Source of the DNA: a virus
Length of the DNA: 32,074 nucleotides
Direction: 5' to 3' (one strand)
IMG/VR virus record: IMGVR_UViG_3300008267_000928
Span: 1-32,074 of that record
Shown here: positions 1-20,426 of the stretch, one piece after another
Layout of the letters: each line of letters opens with the position of its first letter
How positions within the stretch are numbered: the first letter of the stretch is position 1
Program-made: the position numbers and the translations under genes
The notes under the pieces: model-generated
What the model saw: the letters and a program-made list of their open reading frames with translations, nothing else
The model's database searches: none
Told to the model about the DNA's origin: nothing

Positions 1-1
1 G

Positions 2-352
2 GGATACCATCTAATGCTAGACTGCAAGGCATGTGATATTCCCTCAATCATGGATTATGATAACGTCTATAAGTTTGCCAAGCAGCTTGTAGAAGATATC
101 GAAATGGTTGCTTTTGGTGAACCGCAAATCGTTAATTTCGGTAGCGGTAATAAAGCTGGTTTTACTCTCGTACAGCTTATTGAGACATCTAATATTTGTG
201 CTCACTTCTGTAACGAAGACGGTAATACCTATATCGACGTTTTCTCCTGCAAGGACTTCAGTATCGATAAGGTCGTGGGTCTTGTAGAAAAGTTCTTTAA
301 GCCAGCTCGTATTAGAACTACGTTCGTATATCGAGACGCTAACGACGAATAA
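2..352 (+). CDS. speD: S-adenosylmethionine decarboxylase-like protein (5' end outside window)
   Basis: SpeD makes decarboxylated SAM for spermidine synthesis and cleaves itself to create a pyruvoyl cofactor. The reading frame is open to the left edge. The residues before the first ATG (position 14) read G-Y-H-L and continue into MLDCKACD, which resembles the usual SpeD start (G-R-H-L-V-A-E-x-Y-x-C-D), so the true start lies before base 1. Numbered from the ATG at 14, the protein has S59 in TSN, H64 in AHF and C79 in FSC. The Ser-His-Cys spacing of 5 and 20 is the same as S63/H68/C83 of Thermotoga SpeD. The residue before the cleavage serine is Thr instead of Glu, and the one after it is Asn instead of His. 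A related specificity, such as amino-acid decarboxylation, cannot be excluded. Confidence 0.8.
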   Translation, partial: GYHLMLDCKACDIPSIMDYDNVYKFAKQLVEDIEMVAFGEPQIVNFGSGNKAGFTLVQLIETSNICAHFCNEDGNTYIDVFSCKDFSIDKVVGLVEKFFKPARIRTTFVYRDANDE

Positions 353-420
353 TAATATAAAAAACATATTAACGTCTAGATATCAAGTTGCCTATATAGT
401 AGCATTATAGGAGAATTATA

Positions 421-894
421 ATGCTACTACCGTCTTCTAAAAAAGAAGCTATGCATCAAAAAAGTCTTTATTTTTATAATGGTAAACCTTGCAAGTATGG
501 TCATCTCTCTAAGAGAATAACCAGGAGTAGTTTATGTTACGAATGCTCACAAAAAGCAAGCTTGAAGTGTTACTATAGTACTAAGTTAGATTTAAATAAA
601 AGAAAACATCAAATCCTTAACCGATTAAAAAATAGAGCTATTAGAGATGGTGAAGCATACGACTTAACTGTAGATAACGTATATTGGCCTACTCATTGCC
701 CAGTTTTTGGCTATGAGTTATCATATGAAGTAGCTGATAAAGATAGGAGCGTTTCTTTTGATAAGCATGATCCAAAAAAAGGATATACAAGAGAAAACGT
801 AGTTATAATGTCTTTAAGGGCTAATAGAGCTAAGTGGAATTTAAACGTGGACGAAGTAAAGGTGTTATATGAATATCTTCTATCTAAGTCATGA
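421..894 (+). CDS. HNH-type (phage free-standing) endonuclease
   Basis: Probable DNA endonuclease of the phage HNH/His-Me-finger group. The N-terminal half holds a zinc-knuckle-like set C24, H28, C39, C42 (pattern GKPCKYGH...LCYEC). The C-terminal half has the phage HNH signature S-F-D-K-H-D-P-K-K-G-Y-T-R-E-N, followed by N135 in SLRANRAKWN; the usual first residues of the motif (S-x-D-R) read S-F-D-K. A good Shine-Dalgarno (TAGGAG, 408-413) precedes the ATG by 7 nt. The last 26 nt overlap the next gene. Such genes are often mobile homing endonucleases in T4-like phages, and this one stands alone with no intron visible. Confidence 0.72.
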   Translation: MLLPSSKKEAMHQKSLYFYNGKPCKYGHLSKRITRSSLCYECSQKASLKCYYSTKLDLNKRKHQILNRLKNRAIRDGEAYDLTVDNVYWPTHCPVFGYELSYEVADKDRSVSFDKHDPKKGYTRENVVIMSLRANRAKWNLNVDEVKVLYEYLLSKS

Positions 895-1417
895 TCCTAA
901 TGAGTGTGCTCGCTTTCATGTGGATCGACATGTCGTTAAGATGATAGTTGAATATGCGCAGTTAATGTCTACTGCGCATCGTATTTTGGACGGCCAGCAA
1001 TATCAAGGTAAGACTAGGTTGGATAGAAATATTCAACGCTGGCTACTACCTGATGAGCGCGAGGATAAGGTATATAAAGCTTCCCACGTTAAGCACCCGT
1101 CTGGACTATGGCTTAGGCAGTCTAACAATAATTATAATTGGTTGTACTGTCTATTTTGCGAACTAGCAGACGAGTATCAATATAGATATGGTAGAGTTCA
1201 CAAAACTTATGATGAACTCAAAGGTGTCTTAAAAACACCACCTAACAATATTGATGTTGGATATTTTACGCAACCTCCACCTGCTATGCCTGATGAATAC
1301 AAAGTCTCTGCTGACTCAAAGGTATGCTACAAGGCGTATTATAACGGCGCTAAGCGTAGTTTTGCTAAGTGGACTAAGCGTGAAGTACCTGAATGGTTTA
1401 ATAAGGAGATCGCATAA
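869..1417 (+). CDS. Conserved marine phage protein of unknown function (MNIFYL family)
   Basis: A 182-residue soluble protein beginning MNIFYLSHDPNECARFH. I recognise it as a family common in T4-like marine phages, without a function I can name confidently. Visible features are an N-terminal region with many His residues (FHVDRHVVKMIVEYAQLMSTAHR), a central Trp-rich stretch (HPSGLWLRQSNNNYNWLY), an ELADEYQYRYGRVHK helix and a C-terminal KRSFAKWTKREVPEWF. A distant likeness to small DNA-repair glycosylases (T4 DenV type, with K/R-W near the C-terminus) crossed my mind but is not supported by a clear motif. It overlaps the preceding gene by 26 nt and the following small gene by 1 nt (TAATG), so it is probably translationally coupled. 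Confidence 0.65.
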   Translation: MNIFYLSHDPNECARFHVDRHVVKMIVEYAQLMSTAHRILDGQQYQGKTRLDRNIQRWLLPDEREDKVYKASHVKHPSGLWLRQSNNNYNWLYCLFCELADEYQYRYGRVHKTYDELKGVLKTPPNNIDVGYFTQPPPAMPDEYKVSADSKVCYKAYYNGAKRSFAKWTKREVPEWFNKEIA

Positions 1418-1512
1418 TGGCTGCTAGAACTGGTTTGAAAAAGTATGGTAAGGGTCGCCGTAAGATCGGCAGTAAGAAGCGTAAAAACAGAGCAATGAAT
1501 AGGAAGCACTAA
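1417..1512 (+). CDS. 31-residue highly basic protein
   Basis: ATG at 1417 overlaps the stop of the upstream gene by 1 nt, and the TAA at 1510-1512 directly abuts the ATG of the glutaredoxin gene. AAGGAG at 1403-1408 lies 8 nt before the start. The product begins MAARTGLKKYGKGRRKIGSK and ends RKNRAMNRKH. About half the residues are Lys or Arg, there is no acidic residue, and there is no hydrophobic segment. The charge and exact packing between neighbours suggest a real nucleic-acid- or ribosome-binding mini-protein, but no family is recognised. Confidence 0.6.
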   Translation: MAARTGLKKYGKGRRKIGSKKRKNRAMNRKH

Positions 1513-1749
1513 ATGCAAGTAAAGATGTACACTAAGGATAATTGTCCTTATTGTGTAAAGGCAAAAGCATATTTTGCCAAGAAGAATATAACAGTACAAG
1601 AAGTCAAGGTAGGAACTGACATTGCTCGTGATGATTTTATTACTTTGACTGGCATGAAGACAGTTCCTGCCATTTATCTTGAAAATAAGCTGATAGGTGG
1701 CTATACTGATCTTATTGAATATGTAACGGATAATCCAGGAGTAATTTAA
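1513..1749 (+). CDS. Glutaredoxin
   Basis: A 78-residue thiol-disulfide oxidoreductase. The active site C11-P-Y-C14 sits at the end of the first strand, the cis-proline motif T50-V51-P52 follows, and a GG pair lies in IGGYTDL, all as in class I glutaredoxins. In T4-like phages glutaredoxin/thioredoxin supplies electrons to ribonucleotide reductase, which is encoded about 3 kb away (nrdA, nrdB). The start abuts the preceding stop, and the stop overlaps the next ATG by 1 nt (TAATG). Confidence 0.93.
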   Translation: MQVKMYTKDNCPYCVKAKAYFAKKNITVQEVKVGTDIARDDFITLTGMKTVPAIYLENKLIGGYTDLIEYVTDNPGVI

Positions 1750-2057
1750 TGGCTGTAAGTGATGTCTTGCTAGAAGAATATCTTGGCGGTATTGCCATGG
1801 TAACCTTCGTTAAGAAGACAACAGGCGATGTTCGAGTTATGCCATGCACTAAGAATCTAGCTCTTATTCCAGAAGAGTTACATCCTAGTGGTACGGATAC
1901 ACGAAACCTAAACCCTGATATTATTAGAGTTTTTAGCCTAGATAGAAATGAGTGGAGGTCTTTCTATAAGAGCTCTATCATTAATATTGAAAAGCAACCC
2001 GATACAAATGAGCAGGTGAATAATAATGAAGCTAACAATTCTGGACGATCAAACTGA
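1749..2057 (+). CDS. WYL_2 (DUF2693) family SH3-like protein
   Basis: A 102-residue protein with the pattern I associate with WYL_2/DUF2693: VTFVKKTTGDVRVMPCTKNLALIPEE, then DIIRVFSLDRNEWRSF and a final SSIINIE strand. These small beta-barrel proteins are common in T4-like phages and are thought to bind nucleic acid or ligands, with no defined role. The C-terminal 20 residues are Asn/Glu-rich and probably disordered. This tail overlaps the glycosyltransferase start by 32 nt in another frame. Confidence 0.68.
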   Translation: MAVSDVLLEEYLGGIAMVTFVKKTTGDVRVMPCTKNLALIPEELHPSGTDTRNLNPDIIRVFSLDRNEWRSFYKSSIINIEKQPDTNEQVNNNEANNSGRSN

Positions 2058-2985
2058 TATTGCTGCTAATGCAAAAGGTGGCACTGAGATCATGCGAGAT
2101 GGTCTCTTCAGTAGAGTAGATAAGGATCTACTCGATAAATTTCAAATTATCTGCTCTAGACCGAACGTTCTTGATCCAGATAAGATCAAAATTCTCTGGT
2201 GTCATGATCTAGCAGAAGACCCTGCAGTGAGTAGGCTTTCTGAATCTGGTTATCGCGATCAATTTGACCTATTCGTGTTTGTATCGAACTGGCAAATGGA
2301 AAAGTACAAGAACACGCTCGGTATTCCTTATAGTAAGTCCATTGTACTGGAGAATGCTATTGTACCTATTGATAATTGCAATGATAAGAGTAAGGATGTA
2401 ATTAAGATCATCTACACTCCTACCCCTCATCGCGGTCTAGAATTGTTAGTACCTGTATTTGAGAAGCTTTGTGAGAAGTTCGATAATATCGAGTTGGATG
2501 TATTCTCAAGCTTTAAGTTATATGGATGGGAAGAGCGTGACGAACCTTATAAGGCAGTATTTGAACGCTGTGTAGCGCATCCTAAAATTAACTATCACGG
2601 TTCGGTTACTAATGATGAGATCCGTGAAGCTCTAAGTAAAGCCCATATCTTTGCCTATCCTTCTATCTGGCCTGAAACGTCTTGCTTATGTCTTATCGAA
2701 GCCATGAGTGCTCGTTGCCTAGCTGTCCATCCTAATTTTGCTGCTTTGCCAGAAACATCTGGTGGATTAACCATGCAATATCAGTGGTGTGAAGATCCTA
2801 CTCAGCATGCTAATCGCTTTGCTGGTAATCTAATTACTGCTATTCAGATGGTTCAGCAACCTCAAGTAGAGCCTATCTTAGACTTTATTAAGACGTACGC
2901 TGACTTTAAGTTTAACTGGGATCGTAGAGCAGCTGTATGGACAAATATTCTTACTTCACTTGTGAGTGAGAAGAATAGATCTTAA
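2026..2985 (+). CDS. Family 4-type glycosyltransferase (GT-B)
   Basis: Transfers a sugar from a nucleotide-sugar donor to an unknown acceptor. The N-terminal domain has the GGTE loop (residues 18-21) and VFVSNWQ near residue 85. The C-terminal Rossmann domain has IIYTPTPHRGLELL and the donor-binding E-x7-E motif, E217-T-S-C-L-C-L-I-E225, within YPSIWPETSCLCLIEAMSA. Phage enzymes of this type modify phage DNA, virion proteins or host surface glycans, and the acceptor cannot be told from sequence. The start overlaps the upstream gene by 32 nt. The 3' end overlaps the convergent GIY-YIG gene by 35 nt. Confidence 0.85.
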   Translation: MKLTILDDQTDIAANAKGGTEIMRDGLFSRVDKDLLDKFQIICSRPNVLDPDKIKILWCHDLAEDPAVSRLSESGYRDQFDLFVFVSNWQMEKYKNTLGIPYSKSIVLENAIVPIDNCNDKSKDVIKIIYTPTPHRGLELLVPVFEKLCEKFDNIELDVFSSFKLYGWEERDEPYKAVFERCVAHPKINYHGSVTNDEIREALSKAHIFAYPSIWPETSCLCLIEAMSARCLAVHPNFAALPETSGGLTMQYQWCEDPTQHANRFAGNLITAIQMVQQPQVEPILDFIKTYADFKFNWDRRAAVWTNILTSLVSEKNRS

Positions 2986-3406
2986 GATTTGCTTTTCTCA
3001 CTCTACACATAATATGTTCGTTATACCAGTCCGGGGATTCTAAACATCCCCGGACAAACTGTTCTTTAGCTTCAAAATAAGCCATTTCAGATTTATTATT
3101 ACAGAATTTGATAATCTCTCTTTTAAAATTACCTTTACCGAAATGAACAATATCAGCAGAAAGTGCTGGAGAAGAACCGTAATAGTTTCTCCAGTCACTT
3201 TCTGCTTTTTTTACTTTACGTCTTGTTTTGTTCTTTTGTTTTACACGTCTGGTATTAGTAAATATCTTTTTACCAATGTATTTTTTACCATTTAATGTAT
3301 TGGTAATTAAGTATATAAATCCAGCGTATTGAGAGATACAATCTTGTATCTCTTGTTCTGTTAGAGTATTACTATTAAATAGCCAAGGACTGTCTTCAGT
3401 TAACAT
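2951..3406 (-). CDS. GIY-YIG endonuclease (Seg-like homing endonuclease)
   Basis: A 151-residue nuclease-like protein. The GIY-YIG core is seen as G29-F-I-Y and K42-Y-I-G45 in GFIYLITNTLNGKKYIGKK, followed by a Lys/Arg-rich stretch (residues 50-70) and WRNYYGSS near 72-79, the usual position of the conserved Tyr. FKREIIKFC and a Glu in YFEAKEQF continue the family pattern. This layout is typical of free-standing phage GIY-YIG enzymes related to T4 Seg proteins. The Shine-Dalgarno lies in a hairpin (separate entry). It is the last gene of the minus-strand nucleotide-metabolism block and may be a mobile insertion. Confidence 0.78.
   Translation of the reverse strand: MLTEDSPWLFNSNTLTEQEIQDCISQYAGFIYLITNTLNGKKYIGKKIFTNTRRVKQKNKTRRKVKKAESDWRNYYGSSPALSADIVHFGKGNFKREIIKFCNNKSEMAYFEAKEQFVRGCLESPDWYNEHIMCRVRKANLKIYSSHSQVK
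3029..3055 (+). terminator. Strong hairpin after the glycosyltransferase gene
   Basis: Perfect 10-bp stem GTCCGGGGAT (3029-3038) and ATCCCCGGAC (3046-3055) with a 7-nt loop, 44 nt past the plus-strand stop at 2985. There is no long T-tract on either strand. It lies inside the 3' part of the opposing GIY-YIG gene. It may terminate or stabilise the rightward transcript at a convergent junction with no intergenic space. Confidence 0.5.
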
Positions 3407-3407
3407 A

Positions 3408-3428
3408 ATATACCCTTTTCGGGTATAT
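3408..3428 (-). promoter_or_regulatory. Hairpin covering the ribosome-binding site of the GIY-YIG gene
   Basis: Read on the minus strand, ATATACCC-GAAAA-GGGTATAT forms a perfect 8-bp stem with a 5-nt loop ending 2 nt before the ATG at 3406. The only Shine-Dalgarno-like stretch (AAAAGGG) is in the loop and the 3' arm, so folding would hide it. T4 homing-endonuclease genes such as I-TevI are known to be controlled by similar RNA hairpins. Confidence 0.5.
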
Positions 3429-3433
3429 ATTAG

Positions 3434-3625
3434 TTAGTCCTCATCGTCATCAAACAATTCATCATCATCTAGACCGTCATCGTCATCGTCATCATCGGCA
3501 CCGTTATTGATATTCATACCACCACAGAACGGGCAGTAAAATGGCTCTGTTGCCTCGTCACTGTCCTCGATAGTTTCTACGGTAAAAACAGCGCAGCAGT
3601 CTTCACACTCGTATTCTTTATTCAT
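3434..3625 (-). CDS. Small zinc-ribbon protein with poly-Asp tail
   Basis: A 63-residue protein. The N-terminal half carries two CxxC-type knuckles, C7-E-D-C10 (with an extra C11) and C31-P-F-C34, which suggest a zinc ribbon. Residues 44-63 are almost only Asp/Glu (GADDDDDDDGLDDDELFDDDED), a disordered acidic tail that may mimic DNA or bind basic partners. The start overlaps the 3' end of the dCMP deaminase gene by 8 nt. Function unknown. Confidence 0.6.
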   Translation of the reverse strand: MNKEYECEDCCAVFTVETIEDSDEATEPFYCPFCGGMNINNGADDDDDDDGLDDDELFDDDED

Positions 3626-4043
3626 TTGTTAGTTCCTCTACTTCTATATTTGAAGCTTTTAGGAAATTTTTGCCTTCCTCGCTTCTGTAGTTAGTTTTAT
3701 AGTACACATAATTTATACCTGATTGATATATCAGTTTTGCACATTCAATACAAGGCGCATGCGTAACAAACAACGAAGCACCCTCACCACTCTCAGATGA
3801 TCTAGCTAATTTAGCTATCGCGTTCATCTCGGCGTGAATGACTTCTTTGCGAGTAGTCAGCTTACCGTCTTCGTCTACTGATTCGCAATTATTATCCCAC
3901 CCAGTTGGTGTACCATTATAGCCAATAGAGATTACTCTGTTATCTTTGACGATAACAGCGCCAACTTGTAGTCTCTTGGCATAGGAAAGACGGCTGACTG
4001 ACTCAGCCATCTCCATATAAAGTTTCTTAAACTTAAACTTCAT
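3618..4043 (-). CDS. dCMP deaminase
   Basis: Deaminates dCMP to dUMP, the substrate of the ThyX thymidylate synthase encoded nearby. The zinc site is H70-A-E72 (HAEMNAI) with P97-C98-I-E-C101. The substrate/allosteric loop GYNGTPTGWDNNCE (41-54) is the pattern of T4 Cd-type deaminases. Length (141) is slightly short for the family. It starts 1 nt into the end of nrdB, so the genes are coupled. Confidence 0.9.
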   Translation of the reverse strand: MKFKFKKLYMEMAESVSRLSYAKRLQVGAVIVKDNRVISIGYNGTPTGWDNNCESVDEDGKLTTRKEVIHAEMNAIAKLARSSESGEGASLFVTHAPCIECAKLIYQSGINYVYYKTNYRSEEGKNFLKASNIEVEELTNE

Positions 4044-4915
4044 TAAGCTGCCCAGACGCTACCCCATGTACCGGTCAAAGCACCCTTGGCGTAGTCTGTA
4101 GACTTATTCTCAAAGAAGTTAGTATGAGTCGGAGCGTTTAACATTTCTTCAACCCAAGGTAGCGGATTTTTCTTTGCCTTGAAAATGCCTTTCATACCCA
4201 TTGCGATCAAACGACGATCGCAGATATAACGAATATACTTCTTAACCTCATCAGCGGTAAGGTCTCTCATTTCACCCATTGAGAATGCAAGGTCAATGAA
4301 CTTATCTTCTAGTTCTACCATCTTAGTAGCAATGGTATAGATCTCACCTTTAAGCTTATCATTCCAAATATGCTTATTCTCTTCGATAAAGGTTCGGAAG
4401 AGCTTAATCATATTTTCGCAGTGCATAGTCTCATCTACAATAGACCAAGTAATAATCTGACCCATCGACTTCATGAGACCGTGTCGAGGAAAATTCAGAA
4501 GCATGATAAACGATGAGAATAGCTGCATACCTTCAGTAAAAGCTGAGAAAGCAGCAATCTGCTGAGCTACACTTTGCTCATCCTGCGCAGACATCTCAGC
4601 AAAGTATTCATGCTTTTCCTTCATGGCCTCATACTCAAGAAACTGCTGATAAGTCGACTCAGGCATCTCTAGAGTTTCAATCAGATGTGAATAAGCAGCA
4701 ATATGTAGAGCTTCACGAGCAGCAAACCCTGTAAGCATCATACGTATTTCAGGTTGAGGAAAATATGGTAGATAGTTCTTGATATATCCACCAGCTACGT
4801 CAATATCACCCTGAGTGAAGAAGCGTAGAATCTGAGTCAAGAAGTACTTCTCGTTCTCAGTTAACTTAGTATTCCAATCCTTGACATCCTCAATAAAGGG
4901 AAGCTCGGTATGCAT
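4043..4915 (-). CDS. nrdB: Ribonucleotide reductase small subunit, N-terminally short
   Basis: Holds the di-iron/tyrosyl-radical cofactor for class I NDP reduction. Spacing to E. coli NrdB identifies all metal ligands: D37, E68, H71, E128, E162 and H165, with radical Y75 four residues after H71. The C-terminal tail (GTWGSVWAA) that docks on NrdA is present. The in-frame ATG at 4915 gives 290 residues, about 30-40 short at the N-terminus. Codons just upstream read L-Q-H-E-Q-A-H-W in the same frame and still look like NrdB. The best Shine-Dalgarno/ATG pair (GGAG at 4951-4954, ATG 4943-4941) is one base out of frame. The catalytic core looks intact, but the 5' end is rearranged or frameshifted. 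Confidence 0.88.
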   Translation of the reverse strand: MHTELPFIEDVKDWNTKLTENEKYFLTQILRFFTQGDIDVAGGYIKNYLPYFPQPEIRMMLTGFAAREALHIAAYSHLIETLEMPESTYQQFLEYEAMKEKHEYFAEMSAQDEQSVAQQIAAFSAFTEGMQLFSSFIMLLNFPRHGLMKSMGQIITWSIVDETMHCENMIKLFRTFIEENKHIWNDKLKGEIYTIATKMVELEDKFIDLAFSMGEMRDLTADEVKKYIRYICDRRLIAMGMKGIFKAKKNPLPWVEEMLNAPTHTNFFENKSTDYAKGALTGTWGSVWAA

Positions 4916-4947
4916 CCAATGTGCTTGTTCGTGTTGTAGACATGTAA

Positions 4948-5625
4948 TTACTCCGCTACGAAAATGAAATCCGAGACACTTTGATCTACTTGCTTATAAC
5001 CTCTAGCAGTTAAAAAGTCAACTAATTGTACAACATCCGTATCTCTACTATGTTCTGCTATAATAACTGGTTTAAATTTTTCTATTGTATTTACTGCACC
5101 TTTAATAGCGGGATATTCAAACCCTTCTACGTCAAGAAGAATTAAATCACAAGCATTAAAATTAAAACTGTCTATTGACATTATTGGTATTCTACCATCT
5201 ATAGTAGGTTGTACTGTATGTGTGCCCGCATTTGATAAGTCGGATCGTTGTATCTGTACGAACTCATTTTTTTCACCTAATGCTGCGTTAAATTTAATAA
5301 TAGTATCTACTTGACAGTTATTAACAAGACAAAAAAAGTTAAGAGGGTCAGGCTCAAACGTATAAACGAATCTAAAACGATTAGCTAGGAGTCTAGGATA
5401 CATTCCGAGAGCTCCACCTGCTTGAATTACCGTATCGAAGTTTTTAACGTATTTAAAAAACTTTTCACTGTGTGATGATATCCAGTCATTAATAGGTCCG
5501 GTCCATACTCCACCATCAGAACCAGGTTTACCATCCTCACAAATCCAGACCCATCCATCAAGTCCATCTAGAGGATTACTCCTTATATGGACTTGATTGC
5601 AGTAATGATTTAAATTGTAAAGCAT
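4948..5625 (-). CDS. FkbM-family SAM-dependent methyltransferase
   Basis: A 225-residue Rossmann methyltransferase. SAM motif I is FDTVIQAGGALGMYPRLLA (about 63-81), the acidic loop is VYTFEPDPLNF (87-97), and the FkbM signature is DLILLDVEGFEYPAIKGA followed by PVIIAEH. FkbM enzymes O-methylate sugars or small molecules, and the phage substrate is unknown, possibly surface glycans together with the window's glycosyltransferase. It begins 2 nt after the nrdA stop, and its own stop lies within the apparent 5' remnant of nrdB. It therefore interrupts the usual nrdA-nrdB adjacency. Confidence 0.85.
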   Translation of the reverse strand: MLYNLNHYCNQVHIRSNPLDGLDGWVWICEDGKPGSDGGVWTGPINDWISSHSEKFFKYVKNFDTVIQAGGALGMYPRLLANRFRFVYTFEPDPLNFFCLVNNCQVDTIIKFNAALGEKNEFVQIQRSDLSNAGTHTVQPTIDGRIPIMSIDSFNFNACDLILLDVEGFEYPAIKGAVNTIEKFKPVIIAEHSRDTDVVQLVDFLTARGYKQVDQSVSDFIFVAE

Positions 5626-5627
5626 AA

Positions 5628-7403
5628 TTATCCTTCACATGCCAGGCAAGTCTCTTCAGCAAGAGCACGAATATCAATTTCTTCGATAATTTGTCGTTTA
5701 ATTAGCTTCGAGACTTTATCGGCTTTCTTGATCTTCTCACTTCTGCAATAGTATAGAGTCTTTAATCCCTTCTTCCAAGCAAGGAAGTGGGCTGCGTGTA
5801 AGTACTTAACATCTGCAGTAGGTAGGAAGAATAGATTTAGAGATTGACCTTGATCTATATACTCTTGGCGATCAGCGGCTAGTTCGATCAATATTCGCTG
5901 GTCTAGTTCCATAGCAGTTTTAAACACGTTCTTGGTATGTTCGTCAAGAAAGTCTAGTTCCTGCACTGAGCCATCATTTTGCATGATAGTGCTCCATACT
6001 TCGGTGATATCAAGATTTAACTCTTCACACTTACTGCGCAGAATAGCATCTAGGAATCGGTTTTTGTTAAGCCCTGCACCCGAAAGCGTGTCTTGACGAT
6101 AAGCATTAGCACGGAAAGGCTCAATAGAGGGAGAAGTATTACCCATAATGATAGAAGAGCTAGCATTAGGAGCAATGGCAATAAGGTGACTAAACCTAAA
6201 GCCGGTACCAGTAGCATCAGGTGCCTCACCCCGTTCTTTCCCGAGTCTAATATTTGCTTCATTCAAGCGCTTCCTTATATGTTTAAACATAACCCGATTA
6301 GTAATTACTGCTTCGGTGTCTTCGATAGCAATATTATTCTTCTGAAGATATGCGTGGAAGCCAAGCGCACCTACGCCTATAGAGCGCTCACGAGAAGCAG
6401 AATACACCGCTCTATGTACAGTACTAGGTGCATTATCGATAAAGTACTGAAGTACGTTATCAAGCATTTCAGCAACATCTAGTAGGAATAGAGCCTCACC
6501 TTTCCACTCATCGAAATATTCTAGATTTACAGATGATAAGCAGCATACAGCTGTTCTATCTTTATCTGTGGGTAGAATAATCTCAGAGCAAAGATTGGAC
6601 TGACGAACAGAAAGGCCCTTATCTTTGAGCCACTGAGGTAGTTTATTATTACAAGTGTCAATAAACTGTAAGTAAGGCTCACCCGTATGCATGCGAATTT
6701 CAATAATCTTCTGCCATAGAGTCTTAGCAGATACAGTCTTACGAACTTCACGTGTATGAGGGTCCTTTAGTTCCCAGGTATCATCAGCATTGGGATCAAG
6801 CATGCAACGCTCGATAATTTGCATGAACGAGTCTGGAATGGTAATACCGTGATGTAAATTCTGTGCGCGAATATTAGGATCACCGGTAGGCTTACGAATC
6901 TCCAAGAACATCTCGATATCTGGATGATCGATGCTTAGATAAGCAGCATAAGAGCCACGACGAGTAGATCCCTGCTTATAAGCCAAGCAGGATGCATCAT
7001 AGATCTTTAAGTGAGGTAGAATACCCACAGAGCGATCATCAGCAGAACGAATACCAAACCCTACACCTACTCCACCACCTAGCATAGAAAGCCAGTTAGT
7101 TTCAGATAGGGTATCTACTAGACCTTCAGCTGAGTCATCAATCCAGTTTAGAAAGCAAGAGATAGGTAACCCCTTCTTGGTACGTCCGAAAGAGAGAATA
7201 GGTGTAGAATACGATAGCCAATGCTTCGAAGCATACTCATATAAGCGTTGAGCATGATCTGGATTACTACTAAAAGCTGTAGAAACAAACGCAAATCTAT
7301 CCTGCGGTGATGCTTCATCCTCTCTCATATATGATTCACGTAATCTCTTTAATCCTAAATCGTCAAATAATGCGTCACGAGAATAGTCGATCTGAACAGC
7401 CAT
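5628..7403 (-). CDS. nrdA: Ribonucleoside-diphosphate reductase large subunit
   Basis: Reduces NDPs to dNDPs with NrdB. Catalytic residues visible are C83 (PISCFLNW), the N270-L-C272-S-E274 motif carrying the thiyl-radical cysteine, and C287/C288 in VCCLSSVNLEYF, which pairs with C83. The C-terminus ends C586-L-A-C589-E-G, the shuttle pair reduced by glutaredoxin. At 591 residues it is much shorter than E. coli NrdA (about 760) and has no N-terminal ATP-cone, so overall activity regulation by dATP is probably absent. The specificity loop region GGGVGVGFGIRS is present. It is part of a leftward operon with thyX upstream. Confidence 0.95.
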   Translation of the reverse strand: MAVQIDYSRDALFDDLGLKRLRESYMREDEASPQDRFAFVSTAFSSNPDHAQRLYEYASKHWLSYSTPILSFGRTKKGLPISCFLNWIDDSAEGLVDTLSETNWLSMLGGGVGVGFGIRSADDRSVGILPHLKIYDASCLAYKQGSTRRGSYAAYLSIDHPDIEMFLEIRKPTGDPNIRAQNLHHGITIPDSFMQIIERCMLDPNADDTWELKDPHTREVRKTVSAKTLWQKIIEIRMHTGEPYLQFIDTCNNKLPQWLKDKGLSVRQSNLCSEIILPTDKDRTAVCCLSSVNLEYFDEWKGEALFLLDVAEMLDNVLQYFIDNAPSTVHRAVYSASRERSIGVGALGFHAYLQKNNIAIEDTEAVITNRVMFKHIRKRLNEANIRLGKERGEAPDATGTGFRFSHLIAIAPNASSSIIMGNTSPSIEPFRANAYRQDTLSGAGLNKNRFLDAILRSKCEELNLDITEVWSTIMQNDGSVQELDFLDEHTKNVFKTAMELDQRILIELAADRQEYIDQGQSLNLFFLPTADVKYLHAAHFLAWKKGLKTLYYCRSEKIKKADKVSKLIKRQIIEEIDIRALAEETCLACEG

Positions 7404-7417
7404 AGTTAGTTCCTTGA

Positions 7418-8074
7418 TTAATTATTGATAGATGTAATAAAGTCAAAATATAGAGCTAGTTGATCCCAAGCGGACTTGGCAACTTCACGGTGCTCTTTTT
7501 GTGTACCTTCAGTCATACGTAGCTGGCAATAATGAATCCAGGAACGAATATTACCATTCATATACATTCTAGAGATAGTAAGACCTTCGGGTAGCACAGC
7601 ACGTGCTTGCTCTTTGGCGATACCATTATCAATAGCCCATTTATATTCACGCTCTACAGCAAATAGAACTCGCTGCTGTGATCTATACCACTCATTCTGA
7701 AGTAGATTATCGTCAACTTCTATACTGTTTTGACGATTCTTATTATCTTGTAGTCTTGCTTCACGTGTAACAAACCCCAGATCCTTTGTAGGGTCTGCAT
7801 ATCGTTGAGAAAATTCCTGAAACGAGAATGAACGATGGCGAAGTATTTGACGAGCAATGTCACGTGTAGTCTCAATCTCCATAACAACGTTAGACATTTC
7901 AAATACTGACCAATGCGCATGTCTTGCACAGTACTTTAGCAATTTTTCTGACGTAGCAGTATTCATCTGATTCGAAGGATTAGATACGCGTGCTGCATAC
8001 GCTATAAAATCACTAGCTTTTTCTACTCCTTCTATCAGTGGTGAAGTAATAGCAACAATTTTAGCAGAATTCAT
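7418..8074 (-). CDS. thyX: FAD-dependent thymidylate synthase
   Basis: Converts dUMP to dTMP using FAD and NADPH. The ThyX signature RHRxxSxxxxSxR is exact at R79-H-R-S-F-S84-F-Q-E-F-S89-Q-R91. The C-terminal NIRSWIHYCQLRMTEGTQKEH helix carries the conserved Arg/Gln residues. Length (218) is normal. AAGGTGTG precedes the ATG. With the dCMP deaminase and ribonucleotide reductase it forms a dTMP supply pathway for phage replication. Confidence 0.95.
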   Translation of the reverse strand: MNSAKIVAITSPLIEGVEKASDFIAYAARVSNPSNQMNTATSEKLLKYCARHAHWSVFEMSNVVMEIETTRDIARQILRHRSFSFQEFSQRYADPTKDLGFVTREARLQDNKNRQNSIEVDDNLLQNEWYRSQQRVLFAVEREYKWAIDNGIAKEQARAVLPEGLTISRMYMNGNIRSWIHYCQLRMTEGTQKEHREVAKSAWDQLALYFDFITSINN

Positions 8075-8075
8075 T

Positions 8076-9077
8076 TCACACCTTTTTCCACTGAGTAAAC
8101 TTTAGCTTTGCTTGCAGGTGAGTATATGTATTAGCACCGATCATTGACATAACGTCATGCTGTGTCATACCACCCATTACCATATCATTGATATCCTTGA
8201 ATATTAGTGATTCTGGCCAAATTACTACCGAAAAATTTTTTTCGATAGCTTTCTCTACTTTCCTTACAATATCTTTATTTCTAGGTTCGTTATCAAATAC
8301 AAATACAGCATTGTTATTAAACTTCTCTCCAGTATCTGAACCTGCCATGGCAATTGCGTTGTCTAAGAACAAGGAATCTAAAGGGCCTTCTAGTACATAG
8401 AAAGTCTTATCGTAGTTGACAGTATCAAGTCCATATATCTTAGGCTTGGATTCATCCAATACAATAGTTATATACCTTATCTTAGTTTCACTAAGTGCAC
8501 GTCCTTGATATGCGAACATTTCCTTAGTTTCACTAAGTAAAGGTATTACTAGTCTTGATTCATCCTTGTCTGCATTAAGCTTGTTAGGTATCATGCTATT
8601 CGTCCACTCATTAAACTTAGGGGCAAAGAATAGCTTATAATGCATGTTCGACGGTATCTTTCTACCTTCCACATACAGCTTAGCAGGATGATCTATCGGT
8701 AGTTGCGATATTCGTTTGAGTTTATTGAGCGGGCTACCGGCTTGCATAAACTTTGGTCTAGTGAAGTTAAATTGTCCTTCGGGTTCGACCTTTCCAAATT
8801 TTTCAACTATTAACTCTCTATTATACTGTTCAAATAATTCACTATTTACAACTTTTAGAAAACCGCGTAGCGTCATATTTGCCCCGCAGTTATGGCAATG
8901 AATGCGGTAACCTTTACTACTATCAGTAATGAAGTATAGTCTTGCTTTGAATTTATTCGTCTGGCTATCACCGCACAGAGGACAAGAGCAGCGAGCAGTG
9001 TTTTGATTCTGCCACTTAAAATTTCTCACATGAGATGAGAATATATTGATATATTTTCTATCTAACCATTCAGTCAT
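8076..9077 (-). CDS. gp61: DNA primase (T4 gp61-like)
   Basis: Makes RNA primers on the lagging strand. The N-terminal zinc module has C32, C35, C61 and C64 (CPLCGDSQTNKFKARLYF...IHCHNCG), closely matching T4 gp61 (CPVCGDS...KARGW...HCYNCN). A Toprim-like core follows, with FYVLEGPLDSLFLDNAIA (catalytic Glu in EGPLD) and VFVFDNEPRNKDI (D-x-D-like motif). It is the first gene of the leftward replication/nucleotide block. A sigma70-like promoter and an inverted repeat lie just upstream. The thyX start follows its stop with 1 nt between. Confidence 0.9.
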   Translation of the reverse strand: MTEWLDRKYINIFSSHVRNFKWQNQNTARCSCPLCGDSQTNKFKARLYFITDSSKGYRIHCHNCGANMTLRGFLKVVNSELFEQYNRELIVEKFGKVEPEGQFNFTRPKFMQAGSPLNKLKRISQLPIDHPAKLYVEGRKIPSNMHYKLFFAPKFNEWTNSMIPNKLNADKDESRLVIPLLSETKEMFAYQGRALSETKIRYITIVLDESKPKIYGLDTVNYDKTFYVLEGPLDSLFLDNAIAMAGSDTGEKFNNNAVFVFDNEPRNKDIVRKVEKAIEKNFSVVIWPESLIFKDINDMVMGGMTQHDVMSMIGANTYTHLQAKLKFTQWKKV

Positions 9078-9079
9078 AC

Positions 9080-9122
9080 AATACCTCTATTGGTATTATA
9101 TCTGAATCGAAGTAAATATCAA
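9080..9122 (-). promoter_or_regulatory. Sigma70-like promoter with overlapping inverted repeat, driving the primase operon
   Basis: On the minus strand: -35 TTGATA (9117-9122), 16-bp spacer, -10 TATAAT (9095-9100), placing the start of transcription near 9088. An inverted repeat, AATACC (9080-9085) and GGTATT (9092-9097), spans the -10 and start region. It also contains the Shine-Dalgarno of the primase gene (AGAGG). It could be an operator or a translational control site. Confidence 0.6.
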
Positions 9123-9434
9123 CTAGTTTTTAAGGATATGCGAAATAACCATAGGGATTGCAAATCCTACTATGAATATAGCTCCTGATAGGTACCAGCG
9201 CCATTTTTCAAGAGCATCCAGTCTATCGCTGTGCTTCTCGAGTCTTTTTTCTGTTATTGAATGCTTATCTTCAGAATAATCTAATCTGTTCTCTTGAACG
9301 GCTAGCATTTGCTTTACGGAAGTAGATAATTCTGTTATCTTATTAAGATTACTATCCATACGCTCAAGAAGGACCATGAATCGCTCATGATCCCTCTCTA
9401 GTAAAGTAACCTTAGTCTCAAGACTATTTTCCAT
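9123..9434 (-). CDS. Small coiled-coil membrane protein (XhlA-like, lysis-associated)
   Basis: 103 residues. Residues 1-75 are charged and heptad-like (LERDHERFMVLLERMDSNLNKITELSTSVKQ...EKRLEKHSDRLDALEKWRW). One C-terminal transmembrane segment follows (YLSGAIFIVGFAIPMVISHIL, about 81-101). This topology resembles XhlA/hemolysin-type phage proteins. It overlaps the 3' end of the holin-like gene by 11 nt, supporting a lysis or membrane role. No signal peptide or lipobox, so it is not a standard spanin. Confidence 0.55.
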   Translation of the reverse strand: MENSLETKVTLLERDHERFMVLLERMDSNLNKITELSTSVKQMLAVQENRLDYSEDKHSITEKRLEKHSDRLDALEKWRWYLSGAIFIVGFAIPMVISHILKN

Positions 9435-9966
9435 CTTTATTACCAGCTATGAGCTGATCAAGCTGGCTTGACTTTTCTTTAGATCCTACAGAAGAACCAA
9501 AGTAGTAAGCAAAGATACCACCTAGAATAGCGTCTAGTGTACCTAGAGCGCGCATTACCATTTCACGCATTTCAGCAGGAATAATATTACCTGTAATCAA
9601 GTATACCTGTACACCAATGTATAGAGCTACAATGAGGTATGCTAATACTCTTGGCGTTTTATCTTTTGTCTGAACTTCTCTATTACGAGCTGAGTTCTTA
9701 TCTTCGACTTCTAGCTTTGCTAGACTTACATCTAGCTCTTTCATCTTTACTTTGAAGTCAGCTTCTACTTGTTTAATCTTAGAAAGTGTTTCTGGATCAG
9801 CATTAGCTACTGCTGACATAACTTCGTCTTGAGTGGCGTTATCTGATAAACCTAGAGCACTACCAATTTGACGAACTGCGACGCCTGCGAGAGGGCCACC
9901 GAGCGCTGTTGCTACTGTAGGTGCTACCGCCCCTAAGATACCTTTTGCTACGTTTAGTAAATCCAT
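9424..9966 (-). CDS. Holin-like membrane protein (3TM/GTA-holin type)
   Basis: 180 residues. The N-terminal hydrophobic region (VAKGILGAVAPTVATALGGPLAGVAVRQIGSALGL, 6-40) precedes a charged coiled-coil stretch (60-105). Two membrane segments follow: VLAYLIVALYIGVQVYLITG (about 108-127) and AILGGIFAYYFGSSVGSKEKS (about 147-167). The last segment, with its GSSxGSKEKS tail, is what I associate with the three-TM holin family found in gene-transfer agents and T4-like marine phages. No endolysin is visible in the window. Confidence 0.62.
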   Translation of the reverse strand: MDLLNVAKGILGAVAPTVATALGGPLAGVAVRQIGSALGLSDNATQDEVMSAVANADPETLSKIKQVEADFKVKMKELDVSLAKLEVEDKNSARNREVQTKDKTPRVLAYLIVALYIGVQVYLITGNIIPAEMREMVMRALGTLDAILGGIFAYYFGSSVGSKEKSSQLDQLIAGNKDGK

Positions 9967-9972
9967 TGTACT

Positions 9973-10125
9973 CTAACCTTTTAGTTTAGGGGCTTCTTTT
10001 TTATTCTTAGTAATATATTTATTACTGGATTTCTTTGTAACGACTGGTTGATCAGTAGACACAACAGCCCCGGTTACATTGATAGGTACATCAGCTTCTT
10101 TAATAAAGTTTAAAAAGGTTTTCAT
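9973..10125 (-). CDS. 50-residue protein with T4-like capsid-targeting peptide
   Basis: The product starts MKTFLNFIKEADVP, strikingly close to the capsid-targeting sequence of T4 internal protein III (MKTYQEFIAEA, from memory), which the gp21 protease cuts after the Glu. The predicted cut E10/A11 leaves a 40-residue basic peptide ending TKNKKEAPKLKG. The ATG overlaps the stop of the upstream gene by 1 nt (TAATG on the minus strand). It could be a small internal head protein injected with the DNA. It is probably missed by length-limited gene finders. Confidence 0.6.
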   Translation of the reverse strand: MKTFLNFIKEADVPINVTGAVVSTDQPVVTKKSSNKYITKNKKEAPKLKG

Positions 10126-10517
10126 TAGATTGCCTTTAGTAATTCTTTTATCTTATCATCACTTACTATTTCACTCGAATAATAAGTTTTTCCTTGTAGG
10201 CCTACGTTTTCTATTTTATCAGGCATATAGCCTAAAAATTCAAGAATAGGCTTTAAGATATCACCATGTTCATGTAATTTCAAGAATAATAATCTAGTAC
10301 AGTGTACTGGCCCAAAAACATTATAAAGTATAATAATATGATTTATTGCTAAACGCTCTTTAATCTCACCTGTCTCTTTATAACGATTAAACAGTCTTTT
10401 TAGATATTGAAATCGTTTAAGATCATCGTAAAATTCAATAGTATCATAACACTGCGGATTATCGTAGTGTTTTGCAGCGTATAATAAAGCGTTGGTTTCA
10501 TCTAATTTTTCGAACAT
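10125..10517 (-). CDS. Conserved T4-like phage protein (DUF7207-like)
   Basis: 130 residues; the pattern MFEKLDETNALLYAAKHYDNPQCYDTIEFYDDLKRFQYLKRLFNRYKETGEIKERLAINHIIILYNVFG is familiar from T4-like cyanophages and relatives and is, from memory, catalogued as DUF7207. It is largely alpha-helical and soluble, with no catalytic motif. It sits between a structural gene and the small CTS peptide gene, with a 1-nt overlap downstream and 3 nt to the upstream gene, so it is probably co-expressed with virion proteins. Function unknown. Confidence 0.7.
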   Translation of the reverse strand: MFEKLDETNALLYAAKHYDNPQCYDTIEFYDDLKRFQYLKRLFNRYKETGEIKERLAINHIIILYNVFGPVHCTRLLFLKLHEHGDILKPILEFLGYMPDKIENVGLQGKTYYSSEIVSDDKIKELLKAI

Positions 10518-10520
10518 TAT

Positions 10521-10919
10521 TTAAAAGGACGACAATAAAACTCTCTTGGTTGTGTTTGTACCTACAGCGACATAAAGATAAGTGCCGTCATGAAAAATTG
10601 CATTGTTAGTAATTGCTAGAGCGGTGCTATTTGCAGGAGTAGATCTATATGGAATAGCAAGTGTAGTGCTAAACGTACCTATACTACTAGTGAGTGTTAC
10701 AACATTACCTGTAGTAATGTTTACAGTGTTAACAGTTGTTATACCGGTTATTAAAACATTATTTGTTACGGCAACGGTAGTGGAAATGTTACCAAAGAAA
10801 TTAGCTACTGTGATTTTATTAGTCGTCGCTGCACCACTTGGATTAGTAACAGCGACGAGTAATGAATTGCCACTTAGAGTATTTGCAGCGGTTAATTCTG
10901 TAATTTTCTTAGTAGCCAT
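10521..10919 (-). CDS. Virion structural protein, fibre/neck-like
   Basis: 132 residues rich in Thr, Asn, Val and Ala. It begins MATKKITELTAANTLSGNSLLVAV, a start common to phage fibre and adsorption-apparatus proteins, and ends in a beta-rich repeat (SSIGTFSTTLAIPYRSTPANSTALAITNNAIFHDGTYLYVAVGTN). No enzymatic motif and no CTS. The composition and position next to a larger virion protein support a structural role; the exact place in the particle is unknown. Confidence 0.6.
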   Translation of the reverse strand: MATKKITELTAANTLSGNSLLVAVTNPSGAATTNKITVANFFGNISTTVAVTNNVLITGITTVNTVNITTGNVVTLTSSIGTFSTTLAIPYRSTPANSTALAITNNAIFHDGTYLYVAVGTNTTKRVLLSSF

Positions 10920-10935
10920 AATTTAGTTCTTTATA

Positions 10936-11757
10936 TTATGCGTCAGGAAGAACGTTGTCTTCTGCGTCACTGGTGATTGAGCCCATAGCTACTAGAGTCT
11001 CAAAATGAACACGACCAGCGCGACCACCTGTACCTTCTGTACGTACAACCCAACCAGCGTGAGCAGCACCCTTATTCTGAGCACCACCAACTACTGCAGT
11101 TGCAGTGGCTGTTTCACCTGTGAATGAGTGACCAGTTTCTGTAAGACCCTTTGTAAGAGTAATAGCAGCACCGCCACTTGTTGAGGAGATGTAAATACCT
11201 GTTGAGTTACTAGCTTGTACATAATAGCTTGTATTATTAGCAAGGCCGGTTAGAGCAGTATTACCAGCAGCTACCAAGTACTTAATGTAATCGTTAACTT
11301 GATACTTGTTAGATGCAATAGCGATAAATCCGTTTGCATTAACAGCTGTATTGGCATTAAATGTCTGAGCAGCAGGAGCAGCAATTGCTACATCTGGGTT
11401 TGTCTCATAAGAAGAACCAGCTGCAGTAATATTTACGATAGAAATATAACCGGTAGCATTAGCTTGTGCATTAGCGGTAGCACTTGCACCGCCACCACCT
11501 GTAATAGTTACAGCGGCGTTTGAGAAGTAACCAGAACCTGGTGAAGTAATGACGATACTAATAACACCGCCAGCCCCTACACCCATTTCTGTAGTATCGG
11601 CACCATACTGACCAATAATCTCGTTATTAACGAAAGCACCTACAGTAGTGTTACCGAAAAGGGCAGTTTGTGTAGTAGAATTTGCAACTGTATTAAAAAG
11701 CGCTGGTCCCCATAGGACTGAGTTAGCAGCGTTATCTGTCTTACCCCATTGAGGCAT
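10936..11757 (-). CDS. Virion structural protein (marine T4-like type)
   Basis: 273 residues starting MPQWGKTDNAANSVLWGPALFN and ending AHAGWVVRTEGTGGRAGRVHFETLVAMGSITSDAEDNVLPDA. This bipartite frame is familiar from abundant T4-like cyanophage structural proteins. The middle (about 65-215) is an insertion of Gly/Ala/Thr-rich beta repeats (GSGYFSNAAVTITGGGGASATA; GSSYETNPDVAIAAPAA) of the adhesin/fibre kind, which probably forms an exposed domain. A CATAAATA late-promoter element lies 27 nt upstream. Probable capsid or tail surface protein. Confidence 0.68.
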   Translation of the reverse strand: MPQWGKTDNAANSVLWGPALFNTVANSTTQTALFGNTTVGAFVNNEIIGQYGADTTEMGVGAGGVISIVITSPGSGYFSNAAVTITGGGGASATANAQANATGYISIVNITAAGSSYETNPDVAIAAPAAQTFNANTAVNANGFIAIASNKYQVNDYIKYLVAAGNTALTGLANNTSYYVQASNSTGIYISSTSGGAAITLTKGLTETGHSFTGETATATAVVGGAQNKGAAHAGWVVRTEGTGGRAGRVHFETLVAMGSITSDAEDNVLPDA

Positions 11758-11784
11758 AGTAGTATCTCCTTTGAACTCTTTCAG

Positions 11785-11792
11785 TATTTATG
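11785..11792 (-). promoter_or_regulatory. T4-type late promoter element CATAAATA
   Basis: CATAAATA on the minus strand, one mismatch to T4 TATAAATA, 27 nt before the ATG (11757) of a virion protein gene. The presence of gp33 in this window supports T4-style late transcription. Confidence 0.5.
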
Positions 11793-11793
11793 T

Positions 11794-12078
11794 TTATTGG
11801 CCTTTAATTGCCCTGATATAATTTTTAAAGGAGCCACGCATATATTCAGCTGCTTTTGCCTTCTCAAAGGGAGATAGCGAGTTATATTTCGCTAATGCTA
11901 ACTTGGCCATGCTAGGCTCAATAGTACCTACAGTACCATCATCAAAAGTATATTCGCGAGGTTCATTATTATCAATTGCATCTTGTAAGGCTTTGGTTAT
12001 GCGCTTACTAGATGCAATCTTACCAGTGTGTGTAGCAACACCACTTGTTGCTTCATATATGAACCTAGCCTTAAACAT
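11794..12078 (-). CDS. Small protein with capsid-targeting-like start
   Basis: 94 residues. The start MFKARFIYEATSGV fits the T4 prohead-protease motif [L/I]-x-E/A, with predicted cleavage E9/A10. The rest is basic and helical (ASSKRITKALQDAIDNNEPREYTFDDGT...LSPFEKAKAAEYMRGSFKNYIRAIKGQ). No known enzyme motif. It starts 1 nt into the stop of the upstream structural gene. Probably a minor internal head protein, inferred only from the N-terminus and its neighbours. Confidence 0.55.
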   Translation of the reverse strand: MFKARFIYEATSGVATHTGKIASSKRITKALQDAIDNNEPREYTFDDGTVGTIEPSMAKLALAKYNSLSPFEKAKAAEYMRGSFKNYIRAIKGQ

Positions 12079-13334
12079 TATGACATTACGTTGCTAAGAT
12101 GTTTTCCAATATTAGAAACAAAGTCTTGTTTCTGCGCAGGCTTTAGACCGTCATGCATAGATAGCAGCTTGTTAGCATGGTTACGAGTAATATCTTTACC
12201 CATGAACTTTCCACCACCACGGTCAGCAATGCCGCGTAGCTTATTAATAGGATGCTGATTAGCTTCTGTATCTTCACCACTTTCTGGCTTTTCACTTTCA
12301 CCTTCAGATCCACCACCTGCAGCATGCTTTAAAGCAGCAGCAGCATGATCTGGGTTCTTAGTGATATGGAAGTAGGAAGCCTGCTTTCCAGTTAGCTTTG
12401 TGAAGTGTTCTTTAGCCTTAGGATTGTTTAGAACTTGACCTACAACACCTGACTTACGGCCTTCTTCAAGCTCAACTTCTTCATTACGAATAATAGCTTT
12501 GGCGATCTTATGAGCTTTTTTAATAGTGGATTTTTCTAGTGGCGGCTTATCGCCTGTCATCTTCATCGCCTGCTTAGTACCTGTAGCATAAGCCATAGAC
12601 TTATCCATGGCTTCATCGGCCTGCTCTACTTCTTCTTTAGTAACAGGATTCATTTCTACATTCTTATTTTTACCTTTAAGTGCTTTGACGTCTTTCTTAG
12701 CACCTTGACCGGCATCGCCACTCATAGCAGCTTCACTCATACGCTTGCTTTTCTTGTGGACGTGAGTTTCTGATAGAGTGATTTCTAGATCTGATGTAGG
12801 GACGTTTTGTTCAATACCATGTTCAAACATTACGTCATACCAAGCAATATTACCGTCAGCGTCTGGATCAGCATGCATGGTAGGAACTGTTTCACCAACA
12901 CCCCATTGCTCGTGTACGACATGCTTGGCACAATCATGAGAACGTGCATCATCAGCATTATCTTTGTTTAGTTCTTTGGCCTCTTCGACAGGCGCTGAAA
13001 CTTCAACAACCTCGTCAACCTTTTCTGTTACTTCTACAATCTTAAGATTCGAGATAGGAGCGGATTTACGAATCTTGTTATAGAGTGCTACAGCTTGATC
13101 TTCTGTTTCAAATAGAGGTGACTCGTAAGCCTTACCACTGCGATCTACGCCCTCAACCTTATACTTCTTCTTGGCCTTGAGTGCCTTGAAATCCGCAGCT
13201 GTGATTTCATCGTGCGGAGGTGCCGCAGTAGAAATAGCTTTCTGATTAGGGTGAGAGATTTTCTTACCCTCTAGAACTTCCGTGGCTTGCTTTAAAAGGT
13301 CTGCTGGAAGACCTAGACGTTTGGTGAGATCCAT
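12078..13334 (-). CDS. Large hydrophilic virion/core-like protein
   Basis: 418 residues, highly charged, with long Lys/Glu/Ala-rich stretches (about 80-130 and 190-280) and Gly/Glu-rich linkers (about 345-370). A compact KOW/SH3-like module is seen around 135-185 (HVVHEQWGVGETVPTMHADPDADGNIAWYDVMFEHGIEQNVP), a pattern that I have seen in T4-like marine phages. A possible prohead-protease site occurs in VELEEGR. AGGAG precedes the ATG. The composition resembles prohead core/scaffold or internal head proteins, but the exact role is unknown. Confidence 0.55.
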   Translation of the reverse strand: MDLTKRLGLPADLLKQATEVLEGKKISHPNQKAISTAAPPHDEITAADFKALKAKKKYKVEGVDRSGKAYESPLFETEDQAVALYNKIRKSAPISNLKIVEVTEKVDEVVEVSAPVEEAKELNKDNADDARSHDCAKHVVHEQWGVGETVPTMHADPDADGNIAWYDVMFEHGIEQNVPTSDLEITLSETHVHKKSKRMSEAAMSGDAGQGAKKDVKALKGKNKNVEMNPVTKEEVEQADEAMDKSMAYATGTKQAMKMTGDKPPLEKSTIKKAHKIAKAIIRNEEVELEEGRKSGVVGQVLNNPKAKEHFTKLTGKQASYFHITKNPDHAAAALKHAAGGGSEGESEKPESGEDTEANQHPINKLRGIADRGGGKFMGKDITRNHANKLLSMHDGLKPAQKQDFVSNIGKHLSNVMS

Positions 13335-13361
13335 TGTAAATTGCTCCTGATAACTTTATTA

Positions 13362-13369
13362 TATTTATT
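13362..13369 (-). promoter_or_regulatory. Possible late promoter element AATAAATA
   Basis: AATAAATA on the minus strand, 27 nt before the ATG of the gene starting at 13334, the same spacing as the better CATAAATA element at 11785. One mismatch to the T4 consensus, in an AT-rich stretch. Confidence 0.35.
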
Positions 13370-13373
13370 GTTT

Positions 13374-14135
13374 TTACGCTTCTACTTTAGCGCTAGCACG
13401 CCACTGCCTGCAACTCCAGTAACGCGCCTTTGTTCTAGGACCTGGGTTTGCACAGTTATGTCTGGCTCTAAATGACCTGCGACGCGCAGGGTTATCTCTT
13501 TTAATTGATAGGTTAGGATCGCCAAAGCGAACTTTAACTGTATTACCACTATCATTGCGTACATATACAGCGAACTTCTTTCTCTCGCCAGGTGTACGGA
13601 ATGGTTTACCTAAAGGCTTACTATCGCTAGCCTCATCGAAATACGCTCTAAAAATCTTCTTGGCTTTACGGCGACGCAATTCTATTTTATTGTCTTGCGG
13701 TACGTTAGCATCATGCCCTAAATCAAAAGATATCTTCTCTTGACCTGGTGTCATTCTGGAGTATGCAACTCTAATTTCTTTTGTACCAATCTCTAGAGCT
13801 TCACCATAAAAATTCTTTATGAAAGAGCCTTGTCTGAACAGACCAGTATCGCCTTTTCTCTTTGCAAGGGCCATAATCTTAGAACCGTCAGCTCCGTCAA
13901 TTTTATCAGCAGCTTTTGACCCTAAATGTTTAGCTACTAATCTCTTGAACTTGCCTGGATTAGATCCTAGACGCTTGAGGTTAAACTCTTCATTAGCAGC
14001 CCAGATATTATCAACCATATTAGGATACGGTCTACCTGCCGAGCGAGCTCTAGCGCGAGCTTTAGATTTTTGAAGAGGTGTTAGTTTAGAATGTTTCTTT
14101 ACTGGATTGGGCTTTTCCCATACTGGCTTTGTCAT
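13374..14135 (-). CDS. Multi-domain basic phage protein (DUF5872/DUF6321-like modules)
   Basis: 253 residues in three modules. Residues 1-50: MTKPVWEKPNPVKKHSKLTP and RPYPNMVDNIWAA, a short basic module also seen in other phages. Middle: LVAKHLGSKAADKIDGADGSKIMALAKRKGDTGLFRQGSFIKNF. C-terminal (about 170-247): KPFRTPGERKKFAVYVRNDSG, VKVRFGDPNLSIKRDNPARR, FRARHNCANPGPRTKARYWSC, a Cys/His-containing domain I recall as DUF6321, sometimes fused to prohead proteases. Very high Arg/Lys content suggests DNA contact or packaging in the head. Its start overlaps the stop of the upstream nucleotidyltransferase-like gene by 1 nt. Confidence 0.55.
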   Translation of the reverse strand: MTKPVWEKPNPVKKHSKLTPLQKSKARARARSAGRPYPNMVDNIWAANEEFNLKRLGSNPGKFKRLVAKHLGSKAADKIDGADGSKIMALAKRKGDTGLFRQGSFIKNFYGEALEIGTKEIRVAYSRMTPGQEKISFDLGHDANVPQDNKIELRRRKAKKIFRAYFDEASDSKPLGKPFRTPGERKKFAVYVRNDSGNTVKVRFGDPNLSIKRDNPARRRSFRARHNCANPGPRTKARYWSCRQWRASAKVEA

Positions 14136-19399: not shown

Positions 19400-19737
19400 T
19401 GGTAGCAGATGTAATAAAATTTCCAGGTAAATTTAAGCCTGCTCCTCCTACTCTGGAGGAGATAGAAGCTGCTAATCTAGAACAGATAGAAGAATGTATT
19501 GATAGATCTATTAAAAGTTTTATTATCGATACACTACATAATATACCAAATGTAGATCCTGATTACTTTAATACGGGTGATATGGTTACGCAAAAGATTA
19601 TTGGACTAGTCCGTGAATCCATGCGTGCTACTATTTTTCGTTTGCAAAGTAAACATCATGATCTACAAGACATTGCAGAAGATATTATAGCATTTGATTC
19701 AGACGTAAGAGAACAAATTATTGAGGATGATGAATAA
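19399..19737 (+). CDS. Hypothetical acidic protein (112 aa)
   Basis: Starts 1 nt into the preceding stop (TAATG). The N-terminus VADVIKFPGKFKPAPPTLEE resembles short linear docking peptides seen in small phage and bacterial proteins. The rest is helical and acidic (EEIEAANLEQIEECIDRSIKSFIIDTLHNIPNVDPDYF; HDLQDIAEDIIAFDSDVREQIIEDDE). No function is recognised. Its last 30 nt are part of a perfect 75-bp tandem duplication. Confidence 0.6.
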   Translation: MVADVIKFPGKFKPAPPTLEEIEAANLEQIEECIDRSIKSFIIDTLHNIPNVDPDYFNTGDMVTQKIIGLVRESMRATIFRLQSKHHDLQDIAEDIIAFDSDVREQIIEDDE

Positions 19738-19857
19738 TTCATGAGACTAAGTATATCTGAGATCCTAAAGAGAGCCAATGAAAGAGAACAAATTATTGAG
19801 GATGATGAATAATTCATGAGACTAAGTATATCTGAGATCCTAAAGAGAGCCAATGAA
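19707..19857 (+). repeat. Perfect 75-bp tandem duplication
   Basis: The sequence from 19707 repeats exactly with a 75-nt offset through 19857 (151 nt, just over two copies). The unit joins the end of the 112-aa gene (REQIIEDDE-stop) to the start of the DUF6433 gene (MRLSISEILKRANE). Zero mismatches indicate a very recent event or an assembly effect. Confidence 0.95.
19741..19812 (+). pseudogene. 23-residue chimeric ORF created by the duplication
   Basis: The first-copy ATG opens MRLSISEILKRANE, then continues into REQIIEDDE-stop, fusing the DUF6433 N-terminus to the tail of the preceding protein. It is a by-product of the 75-bp duplication. It might compete for initiation with the intact gene at 19816. 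Confidence 0.5.
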
Positions 19858-20232: not shown

Positions 20233-20426
20233 GTAAATCTTTTCGTAGCAAGAATCAAAAGCGTGATCATAAAGAATATGACGATGAAGACAATTACTAC
20301 TCGAATCAATCGAGCTACCTACAAAGGCGACAAAAGCGTAGACTAGACAATGCAATACGTTCCAAGAATGTATCGCGTCTTTTGGAACTAGATGATGGTG
20401 ATGATTATGACGATATTCGTGGATGA
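20229..20426 (+). CDS. Small charged hypothetical protein (65 aa)
   Basis: ATGA overlap with the preceding gene. The sequence is basic and acidic in blocks: MSKSFRSKNQKRDHKEYDDEDNYY, then a basic middle (YLQRRQKRRLDNAIRSKNVSRLLE) and an acidic tail (LDDGDDYDDIRG). Low hydrophobicity suggests a disordered nucleic-acid- or protein-binding peptide. The acidic tail codons (GATGATGGTGATGATTATGAC) also supply ATG codons for the next gene in another frame. Confidence 0.55.
   Translation: MSKSFRSKNQKRDHKEYDDEDNYYSNQSSYLQRRQKRRLDNAIRSKNVSRLLELDDGDDYDDIRG

Follow-up and report, generated by a model that had tools for sequence, protein, structure and literature searches.

An 80-bp loss at the 5' end of a phage nrdB gene, very probably introduced at an assembly join

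The nrdA-nrdB locus

The window, i.e., the whole stretch of 32,074 nucleotides analyzed here (positions 1 to 32,074 of the virus record IMGVR_UViG_3300008267_000928), derives from a tailed, apparently T4-like phage. Its genes for the two subunits of ribonucleotide reductase (RNR) and the features discussed below are the following:

5628..7403, minus strand: nrdA, ribonucleotide reductase large subunit, intact (PF02867 and PF00317)
4948..5625, minus strand: FkbM-family methyltransferase-like ORF between nrdA and nrdB (PF05050, E=1.6e-13)
4941..4954, minus strand: GGAG (4954-4951) and ATG (4943-4941), assigned as the true nrdB start signals from the same SD/ATG and an intact nrdB in the contigs L082-L085
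4938..4939, minus strand: junction at which 80 bp are absent according to the alignment to four near-identical contigs, with 1-bp microhomology (C at 4939)
4913..4918, minus strand: TGG (conserved Trp), directly followed by ATG 4915, from the alignment with relatives and 2ani
4043..4939, minus strand: remaining nrdB, class I ribonucleotide reductase small subunit (PF00268; PDB match 9dws_A, E=7.8e-90)

The remaining nrdB matches PF00268 (Ribonuc_red_sm; E=4.5e-67) from position 18 to the last position, 281, of the profile. Profile positions 1-17 have no counterpart in the window record, which agrees with the absence of the N-terminus from the window's NrdB. An earlier note, made from the sequence alone, had described the metal ligands and the radical Tyr as intact. 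At the sequence level this is borne out, as the segments REALHIAAY (E, H, Y) and VDETMHCE (E, H) align with solved R2 proteins.

The open nrdB frame reaches back to 4993, and the sole in-frame ATG ahead of the NrdB protein body is located at 4915-4913, where the upstream stretch AACACGAACAAGCACATTGG contains nothing SD-like. NrdB-like residues, LQHEQAHW, are nevertheless encoded upstream of this ATG, at 4939-4916. The GGAG and the ATG at 4943-4941 are out of frame with the nrdB body; as read in the window, translation from this ATG yields MSTTRTSTLDAYRASLY and then a stop, 17 codons in all. The earlier note had concluded from these same observations (a poor ribosome-binding site at the only in-frame ATG, NrdB-like residues ahead of it, and a good GGAG/ATG pair running out of frame into an early stop) that the 5' end of nrdB is broken, and on the minus strand each of them holds.

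The methyltransferase-like ORF is 100% identical in G002-G005 and occurs in the more distant relative L003, too. It was rejected as the cause of the nrdB break, since intact relatives have the same ORF. The same ground, together with a search for structured RNA families (Rfam) that found none in the window, led us to reject a split of nrdB by an intron or an inserted gene.

Conservation of the NrdB N-terminus

We compared 80 viral contigs carrying close NrdB relatives, 78 of which have at least 120 bp of upstream sequence. In all 78, the frame continues to a conserved N-terminus, with about 19-29 residues N-terminal to the break point. An N-terminus of the type ...ERSYFKPFxYPWAYDAW precedes the LQHEQAHW segment in the relatives, and the motif F[KR]PFx[YF]xWAY is found in strict form in 72 of these 78 contigs and as obvious variants in the other six. 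The possibility, raised earlier, that NrdB naturally starts at MHTEL in related phages has no counterpart here: none of the relatives examined begins there. Their nrdB is a single uninterrupted frame, and a recoding arrangement is not conserved among them. By this sequence comparison, the break in the window exceeds chance.

A Trp of the W48 type lies in frame at 4918-4916. It aligns with position 51 of the Chlamydia trachomatis R2 chain 2ani, and the Trp preceding ATG 4915 is kept in 80 of 80 relatives. W51 of C. trachomatis corresponds to W48 of E. coli (PMC4118035), and mutation of W48 inactivates RNR (PMC4686667). Initiation at ATG 4915 would drop this residue, so that the metal ligands and the radical Tyr alone would probably be insufficient for activity.

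Comparison with near-identical contigs

Four contigs from four different datasets (L082, L083, L084, and L085) represent practically the same phage as the window. All four contain 80 bp that are absent between window bases 4938 and 4939, and upstream of this junction all are 100% identical to the window. L082, L083, and L084 show zero SNPs in 1462-4938 and L085 a single one, at 3523, while L083 shares 100% identity with the window over 4939-15196 (10,258 bp). In these contigs an intact in-frame nrdB starts from the ATG equivalent to 4943, with the same SD/ATG; the protein begins MSKKTELKLTDERSYFKPFRYPWAYDAWLQHEQAHWMHTEL, and its N-terminus is MSKKTELKLTDERSYFKPFRYPWAYDAW, ahead of LQHEQAHWMHTEL. 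A complete, translatable NrdB N-terminus is thus present in L082-L085 and absent in the window record, in which only the start ATG and the base or bases next to it remain of the first 28 nrdB codons. The nrdB body in the window is intact and identical to the intact copies, and the flanks show no other decay.

As judged by alignment, the SD/ATG at 4954-4941 is the true nrdB start, severed in the window record from its own coding sequence. Since 80 is not a multiple of three, the pair looks out of frame, with start and body one base out of register. The earlier note correctly placed the break at the 5' end and correctly allowed for an error or a recent mutation. Its suspicion of an error was right in kind, but the size was not: 80 bp are absent rather than one base.

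In comparison with L082 and L083, SNPs occur only in 196-298 and 868-1461, on either side of an insert of about 515 bp (about 352-866), which is absent from both contigs and harbors an HNH/endonuclease VII-like ORF (421-894). From the sequence, the pattern in 196-1461 resembles a homing event accompanied by a co-conversion tract. A strain chimera at the nrdB junction, considered upon a first BLAST comparison (100% versus 99.25% identity), was rejected, as the SNPs relative to L082/L083 all fall into 196-1461 and none into 1462-4938.

Further join-like changes in the window record and in other contigs

The record from which the window is taken (G000) is a scaffold of 36,106 bp with 23 N at 32075-32097, just beyond the window end. 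At this N run (12075-12097 in L103), L099 and L100 both hold 129 bp, so the gap size in G000 is underestimated by about 106 bp. Two additional features are private to the record:

19707..19857, no strand: private exact 75-bp tandem duplication, absent in L095, L096, L097, and L098
20552..20612, no strand: private exact 30-bp tandem duplication, absent in L095, L097, and L098

L095, L097, and L098 are mutually identical over their overlaps. Like the 80-bp junction, each duplication shows 1 bp of extra identity, and both are probably join artefacts. They leave the reading frames unbroken, however, and could therefore be real variation. The 30-bp duplication doubles IGMSDRYYYR in the ORF 20392-20748.

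A search for the junction 28-mer among viral contigs gave no hits. A separate contig, L086, exactly equals window 1-4939 and ends at the junction base, which makes the junction a contig boundary in another assembly. Small private changes of a similar kind also occur in contigs whose dataset numbers lie nearby (L082/L104 and L101). L082 has private deletions of 67 bp (window 113-179) and 19 bp (window 4057-4075), probably similar assembly errors, and L104 and L101 differ from each other by duplications or deletions. Neither L082 deletion is a multiple of three; the longer one lies within a SAM-decarboxylase-like ORF, the shorter one close to the 3' end of nrdB. L083-L085, L095, and L097-L100 show zero private small indels of their own.

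Origin of the nrdB break

We consider it very likely that the phage carries an ordinary nrdB and that the 80 bp were lost at an assembly join at 4938/4939, in scaffolding and not in the phage. The change is private to one record, its flanks are identical in independent contigs, and the record is itself a scaffold with a mis-sized gap. Most simply, two assembly contigs would have been abutted at 4938/4939 with their gap or overlap misjudged; the 80 bp between them would have been dropped, and with them most of the first 28 codons of nrdB from the record. NrdB of the real phage would then start directly from the SD/ATG at 4954-4941.

Alternatively, a real 80-bp deletion may segregate in the phage population, having arisen by illegitimate recombination at the 1-bp microhomology that does exist at 4938/4939; its non-functional nrdB allele would survive on the host RNR or as a transient mutant. 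The end of L086 exactly at the junction base would fit an assembly-graph fork between two alleles, the deletion being a real minor one. The deletion allele, however, is found in no other viral contig, and its record also contains a run of N and another two private changes that look like joins. The flanks show no further decay, and the nrdB body is undamaged and equals that of the intact copies. We therefore regard a rare real deletion allele as very unlikely. A hairpin- or repeat-driven deletion likewise finds little support, as the microhomology is limited to 1 bp and the folding of this region, inspected by eye, shows nothing remarkable. A real deletion would probably create a null allele, judging from the conserved Trp that initiation at ATG 4915 would lose, and would mean that a phage is able to lose its own RNR small subunit. 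That such a null allele is present at noticeable frequency in a nearly clonal population, with the phage-encoded RNR dispensable there, is very improbable.

The proposal of the earlier note, an indel of one base or a sequencing error near 4925-4940, would account for an SD/ATG that is offset by one base from the LQHEQAHW frame. It is refuted by the alignments to L082-L085, which, with their 100% identical flanks, give 80 contiguous bases at one point and no single-base indel at the junction; the 78 relatives with enough upstream sequence also all carry the additional N-terminal residues. Expression of nrdB as it stands, whether through a programmed frameshift in translation from ATG 4943 or through inefficient initiation at ATG 4915 or ATT 4948, would agree with the intact and strongly conserved remainder of the gene, but is extremely improbable given the missing SD and the loss of the invariant Trp at ATG 4915, the uninterrupted frame that makes recoding unnecessary in the relatives, the negative Rfam search, and an SD/ATG at 4954-4941 that starts an intact nrdB in relatives.

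The finding is an ordinary one: a known gene with what is very probably an assembly artefact at its start. As a caution, broken genes, shifted frames, or short tandem repeats that the window record seems to show should not be taken as biology.

Comparison with known systems

The window's NrdB shares 62.6% identity over 298 aa with that of the Alcaligenes phage vB_Af_QDWS535. The locus resembles the class I RNR small subunit (NrdB/R2) loci of this phage and of Pelagibacter phages in having nrdA upstream on the same strand, and the protein has the ferritin-like domain with E-x2-H-x3-Y and D-E-x2-H motifs of known NrdB/R2. It differs from known NrdB/R2 in lacking its first 28 codons at the join, in the window record only, and from known loci in the FkbM-type methyltransferase ORF between nrdA and nrdB. 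The join itself is like the scaffolding and gap-size errors of short-read metagenome assemblies; it shares with them private deletions and exact tandem duplications where pieces are joined, as well as a mis-sized run of N within one record. Compared with such errors there is nothing distinctive about it; here, the join happens to strike a gene start.
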